Shown here piece after piece: positions 8,111-42,035 of a DNA stretch of 43,252 nt. The stretch comes from Candidatus Nitrosopumilus sp. (GTDB lineage Archaea; Thermoproteota; Nitrososphaeria; Nitrososphaerales; Nitrosopumilaceae): contig JANQNM010000079.1 in assembly GCA_028279625.1 (NCBI GenBank), positions 1-43,252 on the forward strand, read 5' to 3'. The notes under the pieces are model-generated. The model had not been told where the DNA came from and did no database searches. It saw only the letters and a program-made list of their open reading frames with translations. Both the position numbers and the translations under genes were made by a program. Position 1 is the stretch's first letter. Each line of letters starts with the position of its first letter.

Positions 8111-8128
8111 TGCTCCCATCGGGATTTG
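8111..8128 (-). repeat. Distal attachment-site copy: 3' end of tRNA-Glu
   Basis: TGCTCCCATCGGGATTTG, identical to 41961-41978 inside tRNA-Glu. Confidence 0.85.
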
Positions 8129-8360: not shown

Positions 8361-8867
8361 TCATTTGATATTTCTCATATCATCAATCCAAATCTTATCA
8401 ACTGTTCTCTGGAAAATCCATTCTTGAACTTTAAAGTCTGTGACTTTTTTTCCTCTCCATTTTACAGTCATTGGAGCTCCGCCTGTTTTGATAATTTCAG
8501 CTGATACTTTGTTGACTGTTTCATCTAAAACATCTGTATTGCGAATAAACAAATTCACTTCACATTCATGATCAAAACCTGGCCAATGGGCAAACAAAGT
8601 AAGACACATCTCAGTATCTCTATGACCATGTTCTCCAAATGCATCTTTTTCTCCTTTTATTACTTTGAAATATCGTATTGGTTCGAATTTGGAATCTGTG
8701 TGACCTGGAATAAAGACATCATCTCCAAAATACTTCTCTTCTAATTGCCAATCTTTTAGATAATCTTGCAAGCGAGGGTCTATTTTTGCCTCAAAGTCCT
8801 TAAAACTTAGAAATGTAGACTTTGGAAATGCATCTTTGTTAAGATGTGTTTCATTTTCTGTGGTCAT
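8361..8867 (-). CDS. Hypothetical protein
   Basis: 168 aa; overlaps the upstream gene start by 4 nt (operon with 8864..9934). Confidence 0.65.
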   Translation of the reverse strand: MTTENETHLNKDAFPKSTFLSFKDFEAKIDPRLQDYLKDWQLEEKYFGDDVFIPGHTDSKFEPIRYFKVIKGEKDAFGEHGHRDTEMCLTLFAHWPGFDHECEVNLFIRNTDVLDETVNKVSAEIIKTGGAPMTVKWRGKKVTDFKVQEWIFQRTVDKIWIDDMRNIK

Positions 8868-9934
8868 TTTTTATTTGCTACCTGTGATGGGATTTTGATA
8901 CATCTCCATTGGATATTGTTATAGCATCGAAGTTTCCATTTGTCTTCTTTTTCATGTTTGAATAAAGACCACTGTTTCCATTTTTTAACAACCTTTGAAT
9001 CCTCTGAGCATTGTTTTTTAGGTTTGTCAGGCTCTGGTGTCTTTTCGCATTGTTCTTTGATCTCTTCATCAGTGAGCTCTTTTTTGAGTTCAGTATCTTC
9101 GTGTTTTGATGCCCAAAATAGTTTTTCAAGACCTTCTCCTTTGTCTTCTCCTAAGGAAAATTCTTTTTCTTGTTTTATGATCTTCCATCCTGTATAGTCT
9201 AGTTTATCTTCAGCAGCCCCAGTTGCTTTGGAGAGATTCTTTTTATCATTTTCAAGTAATTTTGCAGTGCTTTCCTGAATCTTTGGTTTGTCATCTGTTT
9301 TGATATCACTAGTTGCATCTTTCATAGATACAACTAATTTTTCAGTTAAAGTTACTTTCAATTTTAATAGTTCAACCATTTTTTCAAATGCTTGATCTTT
9401 GTTTGTACATGATTCAAAATCTTCATATAATTTACCAAAAAGTTTTCCAGACCAAATTGATACAAATTGCCATTCCATAAATGGTGCTAATAGTCTAGAT
9501 GCAACTCCTCTGCTTTGCTGAATTTTTTCAGCAGGTTTGTACAGCAAAAATCCAATGTCAATAACTCCTGCAGAACCAAAAAATACTGTTACCAGACCGT
9601 CCGTATCCTTTCCTGATATTGCCAAACCCATTGCTAGTGCAATTAATGCAATACCTACACCAAAACCAATCACATACATTATCAGAACAATATGAAATCC
9701 CTGACGGGTTCTATCCAATAATTTTTCTGAATAGTCTATTGATAACTCCGAAATTTTTCTAACGTATCTTGATTTTTTTGTTGCCTCTTTTACTTGCTGA
9801 ATTTCTTCTTCAGTTACATCTTCTCCTTGTTGTGTTTTATCAAATGTTTTATCAATTGATTTTTTAGCATCTTCGCCAACTGATAATTCTTTGATAATTG
9901 CTTTTATTTCCTCAAAAGTTTCAGAATCCTTCAC
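8864..9934 (-). CDS. Hypothetical membrane protein with charged C-terminal domain
   Basis: 356 aa; hydrophobic segments IVLIMYVIGFGVGIALIALAMGLAI and VTVFFGSAGVIDIGFLLY. Confidence 0.7.
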   Translation of the reverse strand: MKDSETFEEIKAIIKELSVGEDAKKSIDKTFDKTQQGEDVTEEEIQQVKEATKKSRYVRKISELSIDYSEKLLDRTRQGFHIVLIMYVIGFGVGIALIALAMGLAISGKDTDGLVTVFFGSAGVIDIGFLLYKPAEKIQQSRGVASRLLAPFMEWQFVSIWSGKLFGKLYEDFESCTNKDQAFEKMVELLKLKVTLTEKLVVSMKDATSDIKTDDKPKIQESTAKLLENDKKNLSKATGAAEDKLDYTGWKIIKQEKEFSLGEDKGEGLEKLFWASKHEDTELKKELTDEEIKEQCEKTPEPDKPKKQCSEDSKVVKKWKQWSLFKHEKEDKWKLRCYNNIQWRCIKIPSQVANKK

Positions 9935-16355: not shown

Positions 16356-16916
16356 CTAGTAGTATGCCATCAATCCTTTTTCCTCAAGGGACACATGCAA
16401 GGAGTTTACTGCGCGGTAAACATCTTTTTCTGTCTTTGCTCCAGTACAGACAAGCTTTCCTGATGCAAAAACAAGAATGACAACTTTTGGGTCTAGCATT
16501 CTGTGAATTAGTCCAGGGAATTGCTCAGGCTCATACATGCTTCTTGGAAGTGTTCTTGCTGCTTTTTCCAAATGAACTTTGCCACCCAAGTTTATGGCAG
16601 CAACAATATTTTGAATGGTGACTATTGCATCATTTTTTATCTTAACCTTGCCGTCTCGTAACTGCTCTACTACTGTCTTTACAGCCCTCTTAGCCATGTC
16701 TTCTGACTTAGAACCAGTACATACCATCTTCCCGGTTCTAAACAACAGAGTGGCTGTCTTTGGTTTTTTTAATCTAAACACTGCACCTGGAAACTGTTCA
16801 GGATTGTACTCTACATCAGGAAATTTTTGTTGAATTTCATCAAGATTCAAATCTTGATTAATTGTAGCTGACGCTACAACATTTTCAATACTGACCATTG
16901 GTTTTGTCTGTGGCAT
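16356..16916 (-). CDS. tbp: TATA-box binding protein (TBP)
   Basis: Two imperfect repeats: VENVVASATINQDLNLDEIQQKFPDVEYNPEQFPGAVFRL...TGKMVCTGSKS and VQNIVAAINLGGKVHLEKAARTLPRSMYEPEQFPGLIHR...SGKLVCTGAKT. Confidence 0.96.
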   Translation of the reverse strand: MPQTKPMVSIENVVASATINQDLNLDEIQQKFPDVEYNPEQFPGAVFRLKKPKTATLLFRTGKMVCTGSKSEDMAKRAVKTVVEQLRDGKVKIKNDAIVTIQNIVAAINLGGKVHLEKAARTLPRSMYEPEQFPGLIHRMLDPKVVILVFASGKLVCTGAKTEKDVYRAVNSLHVSLEEKGLMAYY

Positions 16917-31865: not shown

Positions 31866-32462
31866 ATGGGAATTGATCCTAATGTAGTGATATCTTCTAT
31901 TGCAATTATTGTAGCCATAGGTGGAATTATAATGACAGGCATATTGACTAGAAATTCAAATAAACTAACACAACAATCTAATGAATTACTAGAAATAGAA
32001 TTAAAATCAAAACTACGTCCAATGTTTAAACTTATTTTTAATCTAGTTTCTCCACAACATAATGAACATTTGATCACTTTTGATGTAGACATAAAAAATT
32101 ATGGAACAGTTCCAGCAAGAAAAATCATAACTAAATCTAATAAAACAAACAATACACATCTAATTGAAATAACAAAAGAAAATGATGAATTAACAACATC
32201 CTTTCCGATAGGAACAATTCAAAATGAAGGATCTGTAAGATTTGTACGAGAGATAGAGAAAACTGAACAAATCCCTATGTGTTATTTCATCTGGTTTGAA
32301 TATTATTATCTTGATAAAAAAGAAGAAACTGTAGTACTATGTACAATTAATCAAAAAAATTGGGCTGACGTTCAACAAAAATGGTTTATTCAAGAAGACA
32401 TCGATGAAGCCAGACAAGAATGGAACAATATTCGAACTGGCAAACGTTCTGCTTCTATTTAA
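31866..32462 (+). CDS. Hypothetical protein with N-terminal TM
   Basis: 198 aa; VVISSIAIIVAIGGIIMTGIL then beta-rich region. Confidence 0.7.
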   Translation: MGIDPNVVISSIAIIVAIGGIIMTGILTRNSNKLTQQSNELLEIELKSKLRPMFKLIFNLVSPQHNEHLITFDVDIKNYGTVPARKIITKSNKTNNTHLIEITKENDELTTSFPIGTIQNEGSVRFVREIEKTEQIPMCYFIWFEYYYLDKKEETVVLCTINQKNWADVQQKWFIQEDIDEARQEWNNIRTGKRSASI

Positions 32463-32711
32463 CACAACTATTCTATTACCACTATATATGCCCATACAAC
32501 AATTCATGAAATTATTTTCTTCTTTGTTTCTTAAAGATCAAATCTGCCAAGGTTTGATCTGCTCAACATGTATGAAATAGATTTCATATTTAGACGAAAA
32601 ATATGGAAAGATTATCGTGTTTTATGATTCAACAAATATTGAATCATGATTACTAAATACAACTTAAGTTCGGGCAAATAATCAAAAATTTATTAGCACA
32701 GTCTTCAAGGT

Positions 32712-33401
32712 TTGTTTAATATGGTCTCATTTGATGAATTGAATAAAAATGACAATACTCTGGTAATGCATTATACAACTACTTTACTAGATTCTGATCC
32801 CACTCTGATAACAGGAATATCTATTAAAATTCTTAATGAAGAACAAACAGATGCTATTGCCACTGATGATGAAAAAGAGAATCTACAATGGTTACTAAAT
32901 TATCTTAAAGAAAAACAAAATTATAAAATTATTACCTGGAATCAAACTTCAGAAAAATATGGACCTCTTCACATTATATCTCGTTGTAAAGAACATGGTT
33001 TAGATTATGAATACATTCAAGTTAATAATTTTATTGACCTAGACGAAATGCTCAATGAAGAATATGGGAAACCATATCTCAAATGTCCTCGAAATATAAT
33101 GAGTTCAAAATTCATTACATTAGCTAATAAAAATAATATTACCATCACAGATGCACAACCAGGATTAATGGAAATTATTCTTTACTATCAAAAAAACTAC
33201 AAATCAATCAAATCTTCGGTTTCACGAAAAACCAAAATCCTTTCACATATTCTTGAATATCAATTAAAAGGAGAACTAAAAGTAGATTGGACTCAGAAAA
33301 GAATAACAAAATTTCTAAAAAAGAAACGAGTAATTGGCCCAACAGTTATAGCTATCCTAATATCTGCCCTTTTTTTAATGATTGATAGAATATTTCCTTA
33401 A
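32712..33401 (+). CDS. Hypothetical protein with C-terminal TM anchor; possible ribonuclease H-like fold
   Basis: 229 aa; KIITWNQTSEKYGPLHIISRCKEHGLDYEYIQVNNFIDLDEM; C-terminal VIGPTVIAILISALFLMIDRIF. Confidence 0.65.
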   Translation: MFNMVSFDELNKNDNTLVMHYTTTLLDSDPTLITGISIKILNEEQTDAIATDDEKENLQWLLNYLKEKQNYKIITWNQTSEKYGPLHIISRCKEHGLDYEYIQVNNFIDLDEMLNEEYGKPYLKCPRNIMSSKFITLANKNNITITDAQPGLMEIILYYQKNYKSIKSSVSRKTKILSHILEYQLKGELKVDWTQKRITKFLKKKRVIGPTVIAILISALFLMIDRIFP

Positions 33402-33468
33402 TTTTTAAAATTTAGTAATGTGGAACCTCAACATAATAGAAGGAGAAATAGGTGTACTCTAAAAAGCA

Positions 33469-33927
33469 TTGAACCGAAATAAATTAAAAAAATATCAATT
33501 AATTAACTTTTTAAGTTATTTAATATACGGAATATCCTTTTTTGGATTTTCGTATATAATTATAACACAGGTTAGATTCTATTTAAGAGAATTTCTACAG
33601 GTTAACGATGCAGACATTCTAATAATTTTTCAGCTATTGGGAGTTCTTTTGTGGATATCTATTCTTACAAATTTTTCAGCTAGAATTTATCATCACTGTA
33701 ATGAATTTCTTTTTAATATATTATATCATAAAAAAATTATGCCTATGAATGATAATGATAAAAAACATGCAATTATGGTTACACGGATGTTTGCCACTGC
33801 ATTTATTGTAGTAGGTTATACATTTGCTTTAGAATCTGTTGATTATTTTCTTTACGACAATGATTTATTATGTTTGAGATTCAATGATTCGGTTTCATCC
33901 TTTGAAGTGTTGACTTGTTTGATATAA
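33469..33927 (+). CDS. Hypothetical multi-TM membrane protein (TTG start)
   Basis: 152 aa, three hydrophobic segments. Confidence 0.6.
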   Translation: MNRNKLKKYQLINFLSYLIYGISFFGFSYIIITQVRFYLREFLQVNDADILIIFQLLGVLLWISILTNFSARIYHHCNEFLFNILYHKKIMPMNDNDKKHAIMVTRMFATAFIVVGYTFALESVDYFLYDNDLLCLRFNDSVSSFEVLTCLI

Positions 33928-34113
33928 TTATTCTATAAGAAATCTTCAAAACCATACTTTGGAATAATTTGCCAAAACTAGTAAAGAATACAAGTGAGAG
34001 AATTTTTAATTAAATAAATTATCTTCTTTTCCAATTTATTTTTCTTATGTTCTTTTTGCGATCAACAATCAATAGGTTTGAATCATTTTTGAATTTGGAT
34101 AAGATTTGGAAAT

Positions 34114-34524
34114 TTAGTTTGATTTATCGTCTTGATTAGGTTTGGACGACAAGATAATTCGTAATTCCTTCAAATTTTTTCTAAACAAACTATACCCTAA
34201 AAATGAACAAATTACTCCTGAAACTACTCCAATTAACATCAAGTCTTGAAATGCGTAATTCATAGAGGTTGCAGGTAGAGTTTGAATATAGAATAAAGTA
34301 GGAATAGAATTAACAAATTGTGCAATCGCTAAAACGCCTAATACTACTGCAAGTCCTAAAGAAGGAATAGAAGTAAGAAGTATGATTTTTTCCTTATGAT
34401 TGTAATTGGATAATTTTTTGTTAAGAAATTGTCTATAACCAGAAAGAGTGAAAGGTAATTGCAATAATGTAATAACAGAAGCAATTAAAGCAATAATCCA
34501 AAGATTATCTTCGAACATATTCAT
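34114..34524 (-). CDS. Hypothetical multi-TM membrane protein
   Basis: 136 aa, three TM-like segments. Confidence 0.65.
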   Translation of the reverse strand: MNMFEDNLWIIALIASVITLLQLPFTLSGYRQFLNKKLSNYNHKEKIILLTSIPSLGLAVVLGVLAIAQFVNSIPTLFYIQTLPATSMNYAFQDLMLIGVVSGVICSFLGYSLFRKNLKELRIILSSKPNQDDKSN

Positions 34525-34817
34525 GTTTCACAAATATCATAAATAAGATTTTAGCAATTTTTCCATGTTTTACACACAAATCATGGAATTTTTTTCCGAA
34601 TTCGAATCTTCAAGATTTGAACATTAATTCTCTTATGGAGTTGCTAATTTGGTTCAAATCTCTAAGCATTAAAGGAAATAATCTATAGTTCAAAATACTA
34701 GATTTATCAACGTAATTCTCTTGTTTGATAAGATGTATGCTTCTAGTACATGGTGATGAAACTTAGGCACGGATTAGATTGGATCCTTAAAATATGTATT
34801 TTGTAATATAATAAAAA

Positions 34818-35699
34818 ATGTCCGAAGATATGAAAAAAAAATTCGAATATGACTTTGAAGCATTTGGTATTGCTATTAGAGAAGAGGAGTTTAAAGAAGC
34901 AAATATTTTTGCTAATAGAATTATGAGCAATGCATACCTATTGGACGGAAAAGATTTTGGAGTTCTTGGTCACATATTAAAAGAAGTTGCAAATGACGGT
35001 ATCAATATATTACAATCAAAAGAACCAAAATTGATTAAAGAATACACACAGAATTCCATAGAATTTTTTGGAAAGATTACTAAAATGATTGAAACTGATT
35101 CAATTAATTTAAAAAATGCATGGAATAATTATTCGGATCATCAAGATAAGACTAAATTATTATTTATGTCTCCGGCAGAATCAAAAGCATATCAAAAAAC
35201 AGACAAAAGCCTATCAAATAAAGTGATTAAAAAATTAATGGAACTTTTAGAAAAAGAGATACAAATTCTAGCGTACAGACCCAATAATTTTTTCCTAGGA
35301 ATGTTAAATGAAATAGGAAGAGTATCTAAAGTAAATGGATTGTATGCATATGATGAACACTTTGTGTCGTTATTGAGGATGATTCAAAAAATAGATGATT
35401 ATGTTAAACAAACATCGTCTGGAAGTGATTTTGTTACTCGTTCAAAAAGAGAAACAATTCAATTAACAGAAAAAATTATTCAAGTATACAAGTCCATAGA
35501 TTCCAAAAATCAACAAGATGAAAAAATTAACGAATTATTGTGGATTTTGATAAAGATTTGGAGAGCATACTTCATTAAGTTTATGGAAGTTGGTCAAGTT
35601 AATTATTCGATGAAAGAAGAACAGGTACCTGGAGATCCTGAGAGATCTAAGTTGGTAGATGAGATTACTAAATATATAGAAAAAGAAATCGGAGTGTAG
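34818..35699 (+). CDS. Hypothetical helical protein
   Basis: 293 aa; 3-nt gap to next gene, operon. Confidence 0.7.
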   Translation: MSEDMKKKFEYDFEAFGIAIREEEFKEANIFANRIMSNAYLLDGKDFGVLGHILKEVANDGINILQSKEPKLIKEYTQNSIEFFGKITKMIETDSINLKNAWNNYSDHQDKTKLLFMSPAESKAYQKTDKSLSNKVIKKLMELLEKEIQILAYRPNNFFLGMLNEIGRVSKVNGLYAYDEHFVSLLRMIQKIDDYVKQTSSGSDFVTRSKRETIQLTEKIIQVYKSIDSKNQQDEKINELLWILIKIWRAYFIKFMEVGQVNYSMKEEQVPGDPERSKLVDEITKYIEKEIGV

Positions 35700-35702
35700 T
35701 AG

Positions 35703-36629
35703 ATGAACCTCGAAGTTATTTTAAAAGATGAAATTGCAAAAAATCATGCTCAATTTTTAAATGCACCAAAAAATACCCAGAAAATACTTGTTAAGAAATT
35801 GATAAAAGAAGCAGTTTCGACATCTCTTAAAACAATAAAACTCCCTCCATTGAAAGATGCATTTCAGCAGAGGATTGATGAATACAAATACAATCGAAGA
35901 AATCAACAATATCGCCGAAAACACAAATTACCAAATTATGAGCTTCTGGAGAGATTATACAAAATACAAAATAAAGATGTAAAAACGGATCGAACAGATT
36001 TCTTTTTGCAGAGAATAAAGATCGATTATGCATCGCTAGGAAAAAGGATTATGGATTTGGTATCAAATACGGAACGAAAAACTCACATTAGTTATGGAAA
36101 TTATTCCAAAAACCAACTTCCAAAAGAATCATGTTTCTTTAAATTTTATGAAATAGACCAAACAATATTTGAATCTGAAAAAGGTACAAGGAATGAAATA
36201 ACTCGTTTTAAATACAAACTGTTGGATCCAATTCACAAATCATTACTAATCTCAGAAAAAACAAACATGAAAACAATACAAAGTGCGGACTCGATAAAAC
36301 AAGGATTTACAGAAAATCTGTTTGTATTATATGATTTACAATCATTTCTAAATTTTGTGAATGTGTTAGAAGAAAGATCTAAAACAGACATAGTATTAAA
36401 TGATACAAAAAATTATGCATTTGATGTATTGAAAGAATATTATTTTGAAATTTTCAAATCGCATGGACATCCAATAACAAAAGAAAATACAATGGAATAC
36501 ATTTTAGAAAATGATGAGTTCAGAATACTTTCAGAGGAAAATCCATTAACGCAGGGATTTACCATGCTTTTAGCAAACTCTATACAAATCCCAGACATAA
36601 TTGAGTTAATAGAAAACGAACACTGTTAG
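35703..36629 (+). CDS. Hypothetical protein
   Basis: 308 aa; directly follows 34818..35699. Confidence 0.7.
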   Translation: MNLEVILKDEIAKNHAQFLNAPKNTQKILVKKLIKEAVSTSLKTIKLPPLKDAFQQRIDEYKYNRRNQQYRRKHKLPNYELLERLYKIQNKDVKTDRTDFFLQRIKIDYASLGKRIMDLVSNTERKTHISYGNYSKNQLPKESCFFKFYEIDQTIFESEKGTRNEITRFKYKLLDPIHKSLLISEKTNMKTIQSADSIKQGFTENLFVLYDLQSFLNFVNVLEERSKTDIVLNDTKNYAFDVLKEYYFEIFKSHGHPITKENTMEYILENDEFRILSEENPLTQGFTMLLANSIQIPDIIELIENEHC

Positions 36630-36632
36630 AAA

Positions 36633-37043
36633 TTATTTAAATTTGTAATCCAAATTTGTTTTTGCAACAATTCTACAAATTATGATGAAAAGTTGATTGA
36701 TATCAGTGGAACCATTTTTAGTTAGTTTTGAAAGATGTTTGAATCCCTTATGCATTGCTTTTACAATTAGTGATTTATCAATAATCTGTAACGAAATTAT
36801 ATCACGTTCATGAGGAAAGAGTCCTCCCCTGTCTAATCTATGTTCAACAGAGATTACAGATTGAGCAATTTTTCGACCAAGACATTTTTGAAAAGCAGTA
36901 TATTGATCAAGATATTTTTCTTTTTTGAGTTGATTATTGGTGCATTTCATCAAAGTATTTCCAAGAAGTTCGCTTTCATAATAATCACCTAAAATATCAG
37001 AAGTGGCATTTACAAATTCAGATTCAGAGTTGGATAAAAGCAT
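36633..37043 (-). CDS. Hypothetical protein
   Basis: 136 aa; convergent with 35703..36629. Confidence 0.6.
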   Translation of the reverse strand: MLLSNSESEFVNATSDILGDYYESELLGNTLMKCTNNQLKKEKYLDQYTAFQKCLGRKIAQSVISVEHRLDRGGLFPHERDIISLQIIDKSLIVKAMHKGFKHLSKLTKNGSTDINQLFIIICRIVAKTNLDYKFK

Positions 37044-37058
37044 AAGAAATAGAAATAG

Positions 37059-37463
37059 CTAATCAGATAAATTTTCTTCTATGTTTTTTACAGGACGTGT
37101 TAATAGCCCCATAGAAATTCCAATTGAAGGTAGTGCTCCAAATTGAATAATCTGAAGTAAAAATGACTCAAAATTGATAAAATCGGGAGAATTAGGTAAA
37201 GAAATTAAACCAAATAGGGACAAAATTACAAGAGCAGTAAAGTTTCCGCCTATGATTGATGTAAGAAATATTGAAAAAAAGTATTTGATTTTTTTCTGAG
37301 AAGAATAAATAGATACAAAAGAAACTATGGTTAACATCACCAGAGTCAAAATTAGAACCTCGCTTATAGACATTGAAGAAAATACCTCTTCAATGTCCTT
37401 GTTAACAACAACCTCGACAAGGCCTATTATTATAGGCAAAAAAATTACTATAATTTTATGCAC
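37059..37463 (-). CDS. Hypothetical membrane protein
   Basis: 134 aa with four hydrophobic segments. Confidence 0.65.
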   Translation of the reverse strand: MHKIIVIFLPIIIGLVEVVVNKDIEEVFSSMSISEVLILTLVMLTIVSFVSIYSSQKKIKYFFSIFLTSIIGGNFTALVILSLFGLISLPNSPDFINFESFLLQIIQFGALPSIGISMGLLTRPVKNIEENLSD

Positions 37464-37550
37464 AATACCTTCTATAGTTATTCATATATGAATTTCAATA
37501 TAAAGTAGGAATATTAGAATAATCATGATTTTTCTAGAACAATAACATAC

Positions 37551-38177
37551 CTATCTCTGAATGTCGTGGCTACTGTCAAAAATATCGTATAATTTTTTTT
37601 GTCTGTATATTACGAGCGCTACAAAGACAGCTATTGCACTGCCTCCATACATATACATGAATTCTGGCCTATCATCATTCATAGAATCTATTGAAAATGA
37701 GATAAGCACAGCAATAATTAGCAATAGAAAATTAAATTGTGTGTTAAAATATGCAAGTTTTCTTTCTCTACTATAATTTCTCTGACGATATTTCTTGTTA
37801 AATATTATTGTCAGCATCAAACGAATTCCTAAAGGAAGCATGATTACTCCATAAATAAAGTCAATTATCAATAACTGAATTTTTGGTTGTATTTCTTGCT
37901 TCATCTCATCACTTAGTGAGATATAATCCGTAATGCCCTGACTATCAAACTCTGCTTTTAGTCCAAAAGCTAAAACTAAAGCAATGATTCCTGTGATAAT
38001 CATTGATGATGCAACTGTAGATTTGAAAGCATCATGTTCTATCAGCCGGTTTATTGTACGCATATGGAATTTTAATCTAGATTGACTTTTGATTGTTACT
38101 AATCTTGTAATTTGTAAATTTCTAACATAGACAATCAATCGTTTTGATAAATTATTTTCTAATATCTTAAGATACAA
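37551..38177 (-). CDS. Hypothetical membrane protein
   Basis: 208 aa with four hydrophobic segments. Confidence 0.65.
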   Translation of the reverse strand: MYLKILENNLSKRLIVYVRNLQITRLVTIKSQSRLKFHMRTINRLIEHDAFKSTVASSMIITGIIALVLAFGLKAEFDSQGITDYISLSDEMKQEIQPKIQLLIIDFIYGVIMLPLGIRLMLTIIFNKKYRQRNYSRERKLAYFNTQFNFLLLIIAVLISFSIDSMNDDRPEFMYMYGGSAIAVFVALVIYRQKKLYDIFDSSHDIQR

Positions 38178-38473: not shown

Positions 38474-39691
38474 ATGGAAAATAAGGTAAAATCAAGTTTA
38501 TTTTTACTAATTTTTTTCATAGCAACAACTCCAATACTATCATTTGCAGATGATTCTGAGATAACCATTGTTCCAGCAGCAGGTTCTGGCGCTCCCGGAT
38601 GTGAAAAAACTGCAGACAAGTGTTACATCCCATATGCAGCATCAATTGGAGTTGGCAGTACTGTAATTTTTTCAAACATTGACACTGCTGCTCATACGTT
38701 CACATCTGGAAACCCTGATGATGGTGCCAATGGGATATTTGATACGGGCATGGTGATGGCAGGAGGTTCGTTTTCTCTAACATTTGACAAAGAAGGAACC
38801 TACAACTATTTTTGCATGCTACATCCTTGGATGACAGGAGTCATTCTTGTTGATGACAACTATTCTCAAAAGCCAAAGTATTCAGACATACATCTGTTCA
38901 CTGACAAGGAATCTTACACAGAAGGTGATACAATCAGGATATTTGGAACTGTGTCAAATAACTTGGGAATGGACATGAGTCTTGTCATAGAAAAACCAGG
39001 AGCAAAAATAATTGCAATTGAACAGCTTGACGTAAAACCAAACAACACATTTGAGACCCATATCAAAATCGGCAAGACATTTGATGTGGATGGTGTTTAC
39101 TCTATCAAAGTGCAATATGGTTCTGAAAATGCAGACTTGGTTGCATTTGAATTTCATCAACTAACCAGAGATACCGTGCCACCGTTGTTGCTTGTACCAT
39201 CTGACATGCTAATTGAGACACTTGATCAAAAAGGAGTGATAGTAGAGTATTCTGTAAAGGCAATAGATGATGTTGACGGAGTATTGGAATCATTTTGCAA
39301 TCCCTCATCTGGAAGCATGTTTCCAGTCGGAGATACAATGGTAACTTGTCAGACATTTGACAATTCTGGCAATGACGCATACAAGTCATTTAGAGTCACA
39401 GTCCAACTTGATGTATCATCTCCTATAATTCCTGACTGGATAAAGGAGGTTTCAGGATTTTGGTGTAATGATGAAATCAATGATGACTCTTTTGTAGAGG
39501 CAATACAGTACCTGATTGAAAATAACGTGATTCATGTGCCTTTGGATTATAATTCAAGCACAAAATCCTCTCAAATTATTCCTGATTGGATAAAAAACAA
39601 TGCATGCTGGTGGTCTGAAAATTTGATCTCAGATGATGACTTTGCCTCTGGACTGGAATATCTGGTAAGACAGGGCATAATTTCTGTGTAA
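38474..39691 (+). CDS. Secreted cupredoxin (plastocyanin-like) plus HYR-like domain
   Basis: Signal peptide; AAHTFTSGNPDDG...GTYNYFCMLHPWMTGVILV copper site; TVPPLLLVPSDMLIETLDQKGVIVEYSVKAIDDVDG. Confidence 0.88.
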   Translation: MENKVKSSLFLLIFFIATTPILSFADDSEITIVPAAGSGAPGCEKTADKCYIPYAASIGVGSTVIFSNIDTAAHTFTSGNPDDGANGIFDTGMVMAGGSFSLTFDKEGTYNYFCMLHPWMTGVILVDDNYSQKPKYSDIHLFTDKESYTEGDTIRIFGTVSNNLGMDMSLVIEKPGAKIIAIEQLDVKPNNTFETHIKIGKTFDVDGVYSIKVQYGSENADLVAFEFHQLTRDTVPPLLLVPSDMLIETLDQKGVIVEYSVKAIDDVDGVLESFCNPSSGSMFPVGDTMVTCQTFDNSGNDAYKSFRVTVQLDVSSPIIPDWIKEVSGFWCNDEINDDSFVEAIQYLIENNVIHVPLDYNSSTKSSQIIPDWIKNNACWWSENLISDDDFASGLEYLVRQGIISV

Positions 39692-39771
39692 ATCCTAGAT
39701 GTTTGTGCCTTACCATCTTTTTTAATCTTAATCAATGATACCAAATTTTGCATCTATTGAGATTTCTATTC

Positions 39772-39831
39772 TTGAAAAAAGATAGCGTAAGAATTTTTTA
39801 TAAATAAAAATAATTTATAAATTAATTCTTG
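39772..39831. repeat. 60-bp AT-rich box, copy 1
   Basis: TTGAAAAAAGATAGCGTAAGAATTTTTTATAAATAAAAATAATTTATAAATTAATTCTTG. Confidence 0.9.
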
Positions 39832-40175
39832 CTCATCGATGGGACCTAATGAAACAATGAATAGGCACAAATTCAAAGAATCATTTTCATTGATATGTCA
39901 TTGATAAGGTTAAATGAATCATTAATGGTTTTGCTCATGCCTAATCAGTTCATCATTAATGACCATTAACGAACTGAATTGCATCCCTTGTGGGATCGAG
40001 GCTAATTCAACTAAAATTCATTGATAATGGCATCAATGAATCATTAATACAACAATGAATAGGCACAAATTCAAAACATTATTTGCATCAATGAATCATT
40101 AATGAAGCATCTATTGAGATTCTTTTGCAAGCATACAAAAGATACAATGAATTTGTGCCTGTCAAAATTCCATCC

Positions 40176-40235
40176 TTGAAAAAAGATAAACTGAGAATTT
40201 TTTATAAATAAAAATAATTTATAAATTAATTCTTG
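40176..40235. repeat. 60-bp AT-rich box, copy 2
   Basis: TTGAAAAAAGATAAACTGAGAATTTTTTATAAATAAAAATAATTTATAAATTAATTCTTG; differs from copy 1 only in a short window after GATA. Confidence 0.9.
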
Positions 40236-40503
40236 TCCATAGATACAGTATCGATACAACCTTGCTTCGGCACAAATTATCACCCTTGCTGGTGTCGATA
40301 CTAAAAAGATAGGTAAGGTATGGGTAAGAGATGGTAAGATCTTAGCAGCTGTAGAATCAAGGCTAATTCGATTAAAGATGGCATATCTTGGCAAAACCTT
40401 GGTAAGGTATGACAAGATCTTACAAAAGATGCTGTATCCTTTGAGTATCTTCTTGTAAGGATAGAAAAGATAGAATGAATATGTGCGTACAAAAATTATA
40501 TCC

Positions 40504-40579
40504 TTGAAAAAAGATAGAGTGTGAATTTTTTATAAATTATTTCGGATTTTTTATAAATTAAATTTTTTATAAATAATTC
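40504..40579. repeat. AT-rich box, copy 3 (rearranged)
   Basis: TTGAAAAAAGATAGAGTGTGAATTTTTTATAAATTATTTCGGATTTTTTATAAATTAAATTTTTTATAAATAATTCTAG. Confidence 0.75.
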
Positions 40580-41916
40580 TAGTTTGTAACAATACTATTT
40601 GGTTTGTTTTTTGTGTATTCTATTTTATCAAAAATATCCTCAAAGTATTCTTTTAGGTATTCATCAACAATTGATTTCAAGTCTCCGTAACCTTTGTTGT
40701 CGTTCTCAAGCTTGACTTGCCTTTGCTCTAGGATCTTGATCTTTTCTTCTAGTTGCTTCTTTTCATTGTTCTCTTGTTCTTCTTTCTCTATTGCAGTCTT
40801 CAAACTTAGAGGCTTTCCGCATTTGGTGCAAAGTTTGGCATCATAGGAGTTTGGCAAATCACAAATTTTGCAGATTCTCGGCTTGTTGACCAAATCTTCT
40901 CCTTTGGCACTTGATATTCCATAGTGCTTGAACATGGCCTCCTCAACGTCAGAATTCATCATGTGCTCGTATCTTCCAGGCATCTTTGAACCTGATGACC
41001 ATCCGTATCTCTTCTTTTGTAATGACTCTGTTAGAAACATTCCTGTCTTTGTTGCACCAGTATGGCGGAATAGATTTGGCCAAACTCTTTTGTGGATTTG
41101 TGCAACATCGCAAATTCTCTGCAATCTCTTTCTCATTGCATGATATGACCAAGCTTGTCCAAATTTTTTCTCATCCATTGCAATCCATAGTGGTGATTCA
41201 GGATCAGAATTATTTGGATGCTTGTCAAAGTATGACGCCAAGTCTGGTACACATTCAATTACTCTGACTGGTCTTGGGCCTGTTTTACCATCAACTACAA
41301 TAACTGCTCCTCTGTCATCAAACTTTACATGTTTAATTTGACGACTCAGGATTTCTCCTGGTCTGCAAGCCAAATCTGAAAATGTGTGAACAAATGCTCT
41401 GTCTCTGAGATTCTCGCCACATGCTTTGAGCAATGAGTTCTTTTCAGCTTCTGTGATAAGCATATCTGCAGTAAGATTCTCTCTAGGTTTTCTGATTCTA
41501 ATCCAAGAAGTCTCTGTTGGATCCCCTACTTGTTTTTGGTCCCTTGAACCACGCTTCATCCATCTGTAGAAATTTTTTAGAATTTTTTTGTGGTCTGAAG
41601 TCGTGTTTGTTTCTTGTCCACCTTTGCTGAATTTCTTGTTAAAATTATACACTAATTCTTCAATATCTTCTTTGCCTGTATTTTCCCAATCTTTGTTTAG
41701 CATTCTTGAAAGAGAAAGTAAAGTTACAAGAATCTTTGAGCGTCTTGCATCAGATAATGATTCGTTTACCAAGACACGGTCAAATTTTTTGATTAATCTT
41801 ACATTATTTTCATTCAGGTCTTTTTGCATCAATGCAAAGGTTCTGGTGATGATTCTGTCATAGTTGTACAATCTGATCGAGTTTGAATTTGAGGCTGAAA
41901 TCTGCTGTTTTGACAT
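40579..41916 (-). CDS. Tyrosine recombinase/integrase with C-terminal zinc ribbon and coiled coil
   Basis: DLACRPGEILSRQIKHVKF, NLFRHTGATKTG, MPGRYEHM; CKICDLPNSYDAKLCTKCGKPL; next to tRNA-Glu. Confidence 0.9.
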   Translation of the reverse strand: MSKQQISASNSNSIRLYNYDRIITRTFALMQKDLNENNVRLIKKFDRVLVNESLSDARRSKILVTLLSLSRMLNKDWENTGKEDIEELVYNFNKKFSKGGQETNTTSDHKKILKNFYRWMKRGSRDQKQVGDPTETSWIRIRKPRENLTADMLITEAEKNSLLKACGENLRDRAFVHTFSDLACRPGEILSRQIKHVKFDDRGAVIVVDGKTGPRPVRVIECVPDLASYFDKHPNNSDPESPLWIAMDEKKFGQAWSYHAMRKRLQRICDVAQIHKRVWPNLFRHTGATKTGMFLTESLQKKRYGWSSGSKMPGRYEHMMNSDVEEAMFKHYGISSAKGEDLVNKPRICKICDLPNSYDAKLCTKCGKPLSLKTAIEKEEQENNEKKQLEEKIKILEQRQVKLENDNKGYGDLKSIVDEYLKEYFEDIFDKIEYTKNKPNSIVTN

Positions 41917-41960: not shown

Positions 41961-42035
41961 TGCTCCCATCGGGATTTGAACCCGAGTCACTGCCTTGAGA
42001 GGGCAGTATGCTTAACCGGACTACACTATAGGAGC
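41961..42035 (-). tRNA. tRNA-Glu (CTC)
   Basis: Minus strand GCTCCTATAGTGTAGTCCGGTTAAGCATACTGCCCTCTCAAGGCAGTGACTCGGGTTCAAATCCCGATGGGAGCA; cloverleaf stems pair. Confidence 0.94.

Follow-up and report, generated by a model that had tools for sequence, protein, structure and literature searches.

A contig of Candidatus Nitrosopumilus sp. (JANQNM010000079.1, 43,252 nucleotides, the whole of which is called the window hereafter) carries at 39700–40580, beside a tyrosine integrase gene, a modular array in which a constant scaffold holds short words that differ from module to module. Arrays of this kind recur directly 3′ of other integrase genes in Nitrosopumilaceae. Within a module the words are specifically complementary, two related modules have changed their words in concert, and the array class tracks the C-terminal tail of the integrase, not its catalytic body or target tRNA. 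We tentatively take the array as one case of a noncoding modular family located 3′ of tRNA-targeting, Xer-like tyrosine integrases on Nitrosopumilaceae islands.

The array in the window and its relatives

In self-repetition, the interval 39700–40580 ranks first among 283 intervals of its length (881 bp) in the window. Its 9-mer self-match score of 290 compares with 19.3 ± 6.6 (maximum 39) in 300 dinucleotide shuffles, and no non-overlapping interval of 881 bp comes near it; calculated by module, the scores are 78 for module 1 (shuffle maximum 16) and 13 for module 2 (maximum 7). The array comprises the following features.

39700..39785, + strand: probably what is left of the 3′ end of another, truncated module, by the cupredoxin stop codon; matches the 3′ end of module 1 at 64% (D1), with GCATCTATTGAGATT in common (D11)
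39772..39830, + strand: box 1, TTGAAAAAAGATA plus TTTATAAAT-AAAAATA-ATTTATAAA; the same box occurs in G041, G006, G011 and others
39832..40175, + strand: module 1, with words CATTGAT/ATCAATG/CATTAATG, GGCACAAATT at 39864 and 40062, core GATCGAGGCTAATTC at 39994 and AATTTGTGCC at 40150
40176..40234, + strand: box 2
40236..40503, + strand: module 2, with words GGTAAGGTATG/AAGATCTT, GGCACAAATT at 40269, core AGAATCAAGGCTAATTC at 40353 and GAATATGTGC at 40477
40504..40577, + strand: box 3 cluster, TTGAAAAAAGATA plus three TTTATAAAT, touching the integrase stop codon

The first-pass annotation had located the array here and had placed its boxes, scaffold pieces and words correctly, apart from small corrections. 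It counted three AT-rich boxes with AAAAATA, and three exact TTGAAAAAAGATA sites are indeed present (39772, 40176 and 40504, with no other copy in the window) together with TTTATAAATAAAAATAATTTATAAA at 39797 and 40201, but box 3 is without the spacer and has the three TTTATAAAT instead. Besides GGCACAAATT and AATTTGTGCC, the scaffold pieces GGCTAATTC (40000 and 40361) and GATAnAATGAATnTGTGC (40141 and 40469) were mapped. The module-specific words were confirmed, i.e. CATTGATA and CATTAATG with three copies each and TCATTAATGA at 39953 and 40096 in module 1, and GGTAAGGTATG at 40312 and 40401 in module 2; the exception is TAAGATCTTA, which has a single exact copy (40335), the other reading CAAGATCTTA. 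Module 2, with homologues in G041 (74%), G006 (74%) and G011 (66%), is an eroded copy, the G006 and G011 relatives being far richer in the same words. No open reading frame of at least 60 amino acids was found on the + strand within the window array, and when the window at 37–43 kb and eight related loci were searched against Rfam 15, nothing but tRNAs scored at or above the gathering threshold, leaving the arrays unmatched.

A DNA search of 95 genomes of the genus retrieved homologous arrays in G041, G006 and G011, with weaker homologues in G055 and G050; each lies directly 3′ of an integrase stop codon. Further integrases were gathered by a profile built from the array-linked ones, and the 700 bp after each stop codon were compared with the 700 bp before the open frame, z ≥ 4 defining a repeat-rich flank. 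By this measure, 19 of 68 downstream flanks of Nitrosopumilaceae tyrosine integrases were repeat-rich versus 1 of 56 upstream flanks, the score of one downstream case (L061) coming partly from a coding histidine/methionine repeat and not from an array. Repeats are therefore not absent from other integrase flanks, and the initial description of a constant scaffold with differing words beside the integrase was upheld and extended to many genomes. Several scaffold classes were distinguished, of which at least two recur in many genomes: class A, the window type, with GGCACAAATT, AGAATCGAGGCTAAT and TTTATAAAT boxes, which is also present in another genus of the family (G406); class B (G016, G055:C5 and G050:C39), with boxes like TTTATAAAACATYGAAGACG and words AGCTGTTTT; and class C, with TATAGG, AGGCRYGAAATT and a second AGGCRYG.

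Outside these three classes, other word arrays (GAGTGTGAGAGAGCGAGAG; GTAGCTACAGCT) with AGGCAC motifs lie 3′ of the integrase at L074 (G016:C10) and L076 (G050:C25). In the high-GC genomes G064 and G047 (L093, L097), the integrase is followed by repeated near-perfect ∼40-bp palindromes TACCCGCAAAnnnTCATAGAGCTCTATGA...TTTGCGGGTA, possibly another array class. Past several arrays lie stretches that resemble degenerate tRNAs and combine GGTTCAAnTCC with either CTCTTAA or a CTCTCATAGAG hairpin, namely at 1930–2090 of L003, at 3085–3190 of L042 and ∼500 bp after the integrase stop codon in L045 and L046; neither ARAGORN nor Rfam called them. In the viral collections, no integrase relative was found with the A1 profile and no class A box was matched; the one class A core match was judged by inspection to be chance, its GC-rich contig having no further scaffold features, and none of 28 class C motif matches had word arrays. 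The phage records held no near match. Exact core matches in the genus at L028 and L029 lay in coding or unrelated places and were dismissed on reading.

Self-complementary words in a constant scaffold

Class C modules follow the order W - TATAGG - W′ - AGGCRYGAAATT - W - W - AGGCRYG, in which W is the word and W′ its complement. In the first six modules, 12 nt separate the last two W copies; the TATAGG to AGGC distance is ∼31 nt in four modules of five and 27 nt in the remaining one, and AGGC to AGGC measures 54–55 nt. Within this constant spacing the words vary (CCAACC, CTAACTAACC, TCACATCACA and others). More modules of the class were found by a covariance model of six modules, including L206, L207 and L208, which are weak matches (E 4e-4 to 2e-3) accepted on sequence reading.

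Over 12 class C modules, W′ was complementary both to the 5′ arm of its module (z 5.7, 0 of 20,000 permutations) and to the downstream words of that module (z 4.5, 1 of 20,000); the latter signal had been weak in an earlier permutation with five modules (16/120). The same-sense and cross controls on the 12 modules were null, and W′ does not match the words of other modules. In 12 class A modules, the sequences left and right of the core were also module-specifically complementary (z 5.8, 0 of 20,000 permutations), and so they were with the closest family cut to one member (z 5.0, again 0 of 20,000). Concerted word change was seen by comparing L207 with L063, a second array of the window's own genome: identity is 91/104 (88%) in the leader and 10/11 and 9/10 in the motifs, versus 15/27 and 32/66 in the word blocks, and the words have been altered consistently on both complementary sides. 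A comparison of the modules of one array with each other's words, addressing avoidance in three arrays only, yielded no clear result.

Hairpin-templated mutation and slippage might by themselves homogenise words in non-functional AT-rich intergenic DNA, and low-complexity, self-complementary words and eroded modules such as module 2 of the window would conform to such a by-product. We consider this origin quite improbable, in view of the scaffold motifs and exact spacings, which are kept across genera and in modules whose words differ, the strong downstream/upstream asymmetry, and the coordinated word change within a conserved scaffold. The recurrent palindromes GATC, CATG, AGCT and ATCGAT carry no evidential weight for restriction–modification recognition sites, a reading that is unsupported because so few AT-rich four-base palindromes are possible.

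Array class and the integrase tail

The integrase adjoining the array and the part of its gene that concerns us are the following.

40579..41916, − strand: tyrosine integrase of 445 residues, with catalytic body, zinc ribbon (∼349–371) and C-terminal tail, by Pfam and PDB profile
40582..40803, − strand: coding sequence of the C-terminal helical tail (residues 372–445), with one predicted helix at 372–436, co-varying with array class

This protein is a Xer-like tyrosine recombinase, its best matches in the PDB profile search being XerA/XerC-like with XerA on top. Its Pfam PF00589 match (E 2.7e-5, 24.4 bits) is under the 27.1-bit cut-off, and the G006 relative scores 43.2 bits. A low-confidence structure model (mean pLDDT, the predicted local distance difference test, of 55.8) places the tail as a single helix, 372–436, after the zinc-ribbon region.

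Integrases ∼80% identical to that of the window, all at tRNA-Glu(CTC), differ in the C-terminal tail, and they are accompanied by class A (window and G011), by class C (G058 and G032) or by no recognisable array (G008 and G015). Among 17 array-bearing integrases, the pairs of which are non-independent, tail-similar pairs shared the array class in 20 of 20 cases, and in 10 of 10 where the bodies are unrelated (permutation p = 0.00025), whereas body-similar, tail-different pairs shared it in just 4 of 41. This is exemplified by the window and G041, whose bodies are unrelated (normalised similarity 0.02) and whose arrays share 111 10-mers versus 5 expected. Simple counting of shared k-mers over all pairs gave a weak tail-array correlation (Spearman 0.17), the class-based test being the informative one. 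We lean, with reservation, towards array and tail being co-inherited and joined together to unrelated catalytic bodies.

A role of the words as target guides was rejected, given that they differ among integrases at the same tRNA-Glu. An integron- or shufflon-like array, in which the integrase would recombine the TTTATAAAT-7 bp-ATTTATAAA boxes and so shuffle the modules, would suit the likeness of the boxes to inverted arms around a 7-bp spacer, as well as the module family order in G041, which differs from that in G011 and the window. It is nonetheless highly improbable: integrases whose catalytic bodies are unrelated have the same boxes, and the mapped attachment (att) site, i.e. the tRNA-Glu 3′ end, is without a box; the class C arrays have no such box either.

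Proposed pairing and binding, and the island setting

As to function, the explanation that we provisionally prefer is that the array is a cis-acting partner of the integrase tail and works via alternative W′–W pairing; binding, folding and an effect on recombination are inferred. W′ would pair with one or another W copy of its module to give alternative hairpins, in RNA or single-stranded DNA, which would present the conserved motifs to the tail and in this way switch or assist integration versus excision. If a single W′ has to fit several W copies, the joint change of every copy of a word would be accounted for, and diversification would follow from the need for words to match in their own module and not those of other elements. 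Covarying pairing partners do exist in the modules, without G-U or strand bias. RNAalifold on six class C modules gave one short helix, of W′ with the second downstream word, and module 1 of the window folded better than shuffles (z −4.0, and −5.3 with a second shuffle set), while module 2 did not (z −1.4).

Several observations weigh against this explanation. The mean fold z over 27 modules was −3.26 and −3.30 for the two strands, i.e. equal, and the non-Watson-Crick positions in the best helices were G.T in 5 and A.C in 5 cases, with no G-U excess; RNA is therefore not favoured over single- or double-stranded DNA, and the structured RNA proposed in the first-pass annotation stands as possible with this qualification. 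The predicted full folds differ among modules, only the hairpin around the core recurring by eye, and no consensus RNA fold was obtainable across all modules. Assignment to array classes was manual, based on the boxes and motifs recognised in reading the sequences, and the tails of G055/G406 (class A) and L040 (class C) are unlike the rest of their class, so the tail-array pairing is not strict or one to one. The linkage could moreover come from mere adjacency. Finally, class C modules occur away from an intact integrase at L192 (G040:C96, ∼11.2 kb), L206 (G068:C71) and, as a weak match, L208 (G091:C1).

The last observation, together with the covarying alternative partners, would agree with a free-standing noncoding RNA, regulator or antisense, that tends to travel at integrase 3′ ends and acts elsewhere. 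We regard this as fairly improbable, since array class tracks the integrase tail, G-U pairs are not in excess, Rfam gave no match and no promoter-like sequence common to the classes was seen by eye. The main rival is an array of duplex DNA sites, in which the words would be bound by word-specific proteins (iteron, partition or excision) and the AT-rich boxes would serve for melting or as arm-type sites, all without folding. The words are often perfect palindromes, strand preference is absent, AT-rich boxes beside repeated words recall iteron origins, and the box type tracks the integrase tail, all of which conform to duplex sites. Simple arrays, however, do not need a fixed W, W′, W, W orientation and constant scaffold spacing; one integrase is present, yet each module of an array would need another binding protein; and no Rep-like protein was found among ten island proteins searched in Pfam. 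On balance, we hold duplex sites to be somewhat unlikely.

The array belongs to an integrated island that is delimited as follows.

8111..8128, no strand: distal att copy TGCTCCCATCGGGATTTG (island left end), directly repeating 18 bp of the tRNA-Glu 3′ end
41961..41978, no strand: att copy at the tRNA-Glu 3′ end (island right end), 18-bp repeat TGCTCCCATCGGGATTTG

In relatives (G004, G022, G068 and others) the left flank up to 8128/8103 is joined straight to 41961, and such an empty site is also in contig C67 of the window's own assembly. With the 18-bp repeat, the empty sites establish that the window contains a 33.9-kb integrated island (8111–41978), the array lying at its tRNA-Glu end; an integrase by a tRNA (gene start 45 bp away), direct att repeats and empty sites in relatives make it a tRNA-targeted integrative element. 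The cupredoxin gene (38474–39691) is convergent with the integrase gene, and the array fills the gap between it and the integrase stop codon. The C67 empty site has a 91%-identical flank, and its presence in the same assembly suggests that the genome bin mixes strains. An intact extra TATA-binding protein (TBP) gene (16356–16916, Pfam E 1.6e-58) is unusual island cargo. Most island proteins searched (8361–9934 and 31866–38177) had no Pfam match, including neighbours on the array side, and no replication protein or Rep domain was recognised among the ten, which bears on the replication origin suggested initially.

Known systems resemble the array in part. The arm or accessory sites of lambda-type attP are likewise repeated short sites by the integrase gene of an integrated element, which a separate integrase domain may recognise. 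Arm-type sites, as first proposed, are nevertheless a poor fit, since they lie no more than a few hundred bp from the recombination core and the array is ∼1.4 kb from the tRNA core, past the integrase gene, with boxes shared by unrelated catalytic bodies; it also has module-specific self-complementary words and is linked to the C-terminal tail, not to an N-terminal arm-binding domain. IS110 bridge RNA shares noncoding sequence by a recombinase gene and a conserved frame with variable (loop) words, but depends on a DEDD recombinase and on guide loops matching target and donor. Here the integrase is a tyrosine recombinase, and the words do not track the target, as the window, L040 and L042 share tRNA-Glu and not words. 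Integrons, including archaeal ones (PMC9668308), have a tyrosine recombinase beside an array of variable palindromic units; their coding cassettes lie 5′ of and divergent from intI, whereas the array here is 3′ of the integrase, its modules are without cassette genes, and its boxes accompany catalytic bodies that are unrelated to each other. Iteron plasmid origins offer an AT-rich stretch and repeated words differing per replicon, but the array has word and complement in fixed order and several word sets per element, and no initiator was found among the ten proteins. Thaumarchaeal integrated mobile elements (PMC6563490) share a Xer-like integrase, a tRNA target, att direct repeats and cargo genes. 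Neither 'non-coding' nor 'noncoding' occurs in that survey or in a review of archaeal tyrosine recombinases (PMC8371274), and a literature search, with subscription papers and preprints outside its scope, found no description of such arrays. As far as the searched literature goes, this points to an undescribed genetic element.

A broader proposal, which we consider rather doubtful, is that recombinases may have a cis-encoded nucleic acid partner, in which a conserved frame and a fast-changing self-complementary word are read with an exchangeable tail, providing each mobile element with a private lock and key for integration and excision. Concerted word change in a fixed scaffold is a striking case of coordinated evolution and is directly testable, and inspection 3′ of integrases with helical tails provides a search rule for more cases. 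If the association holds, many archaeal integrases have an unrecognised nucleic-acid partner, and the integrase would be a two-part device, of which the body sets the target tRNA and the tail-plus-array cassette can be swapped between bodies.
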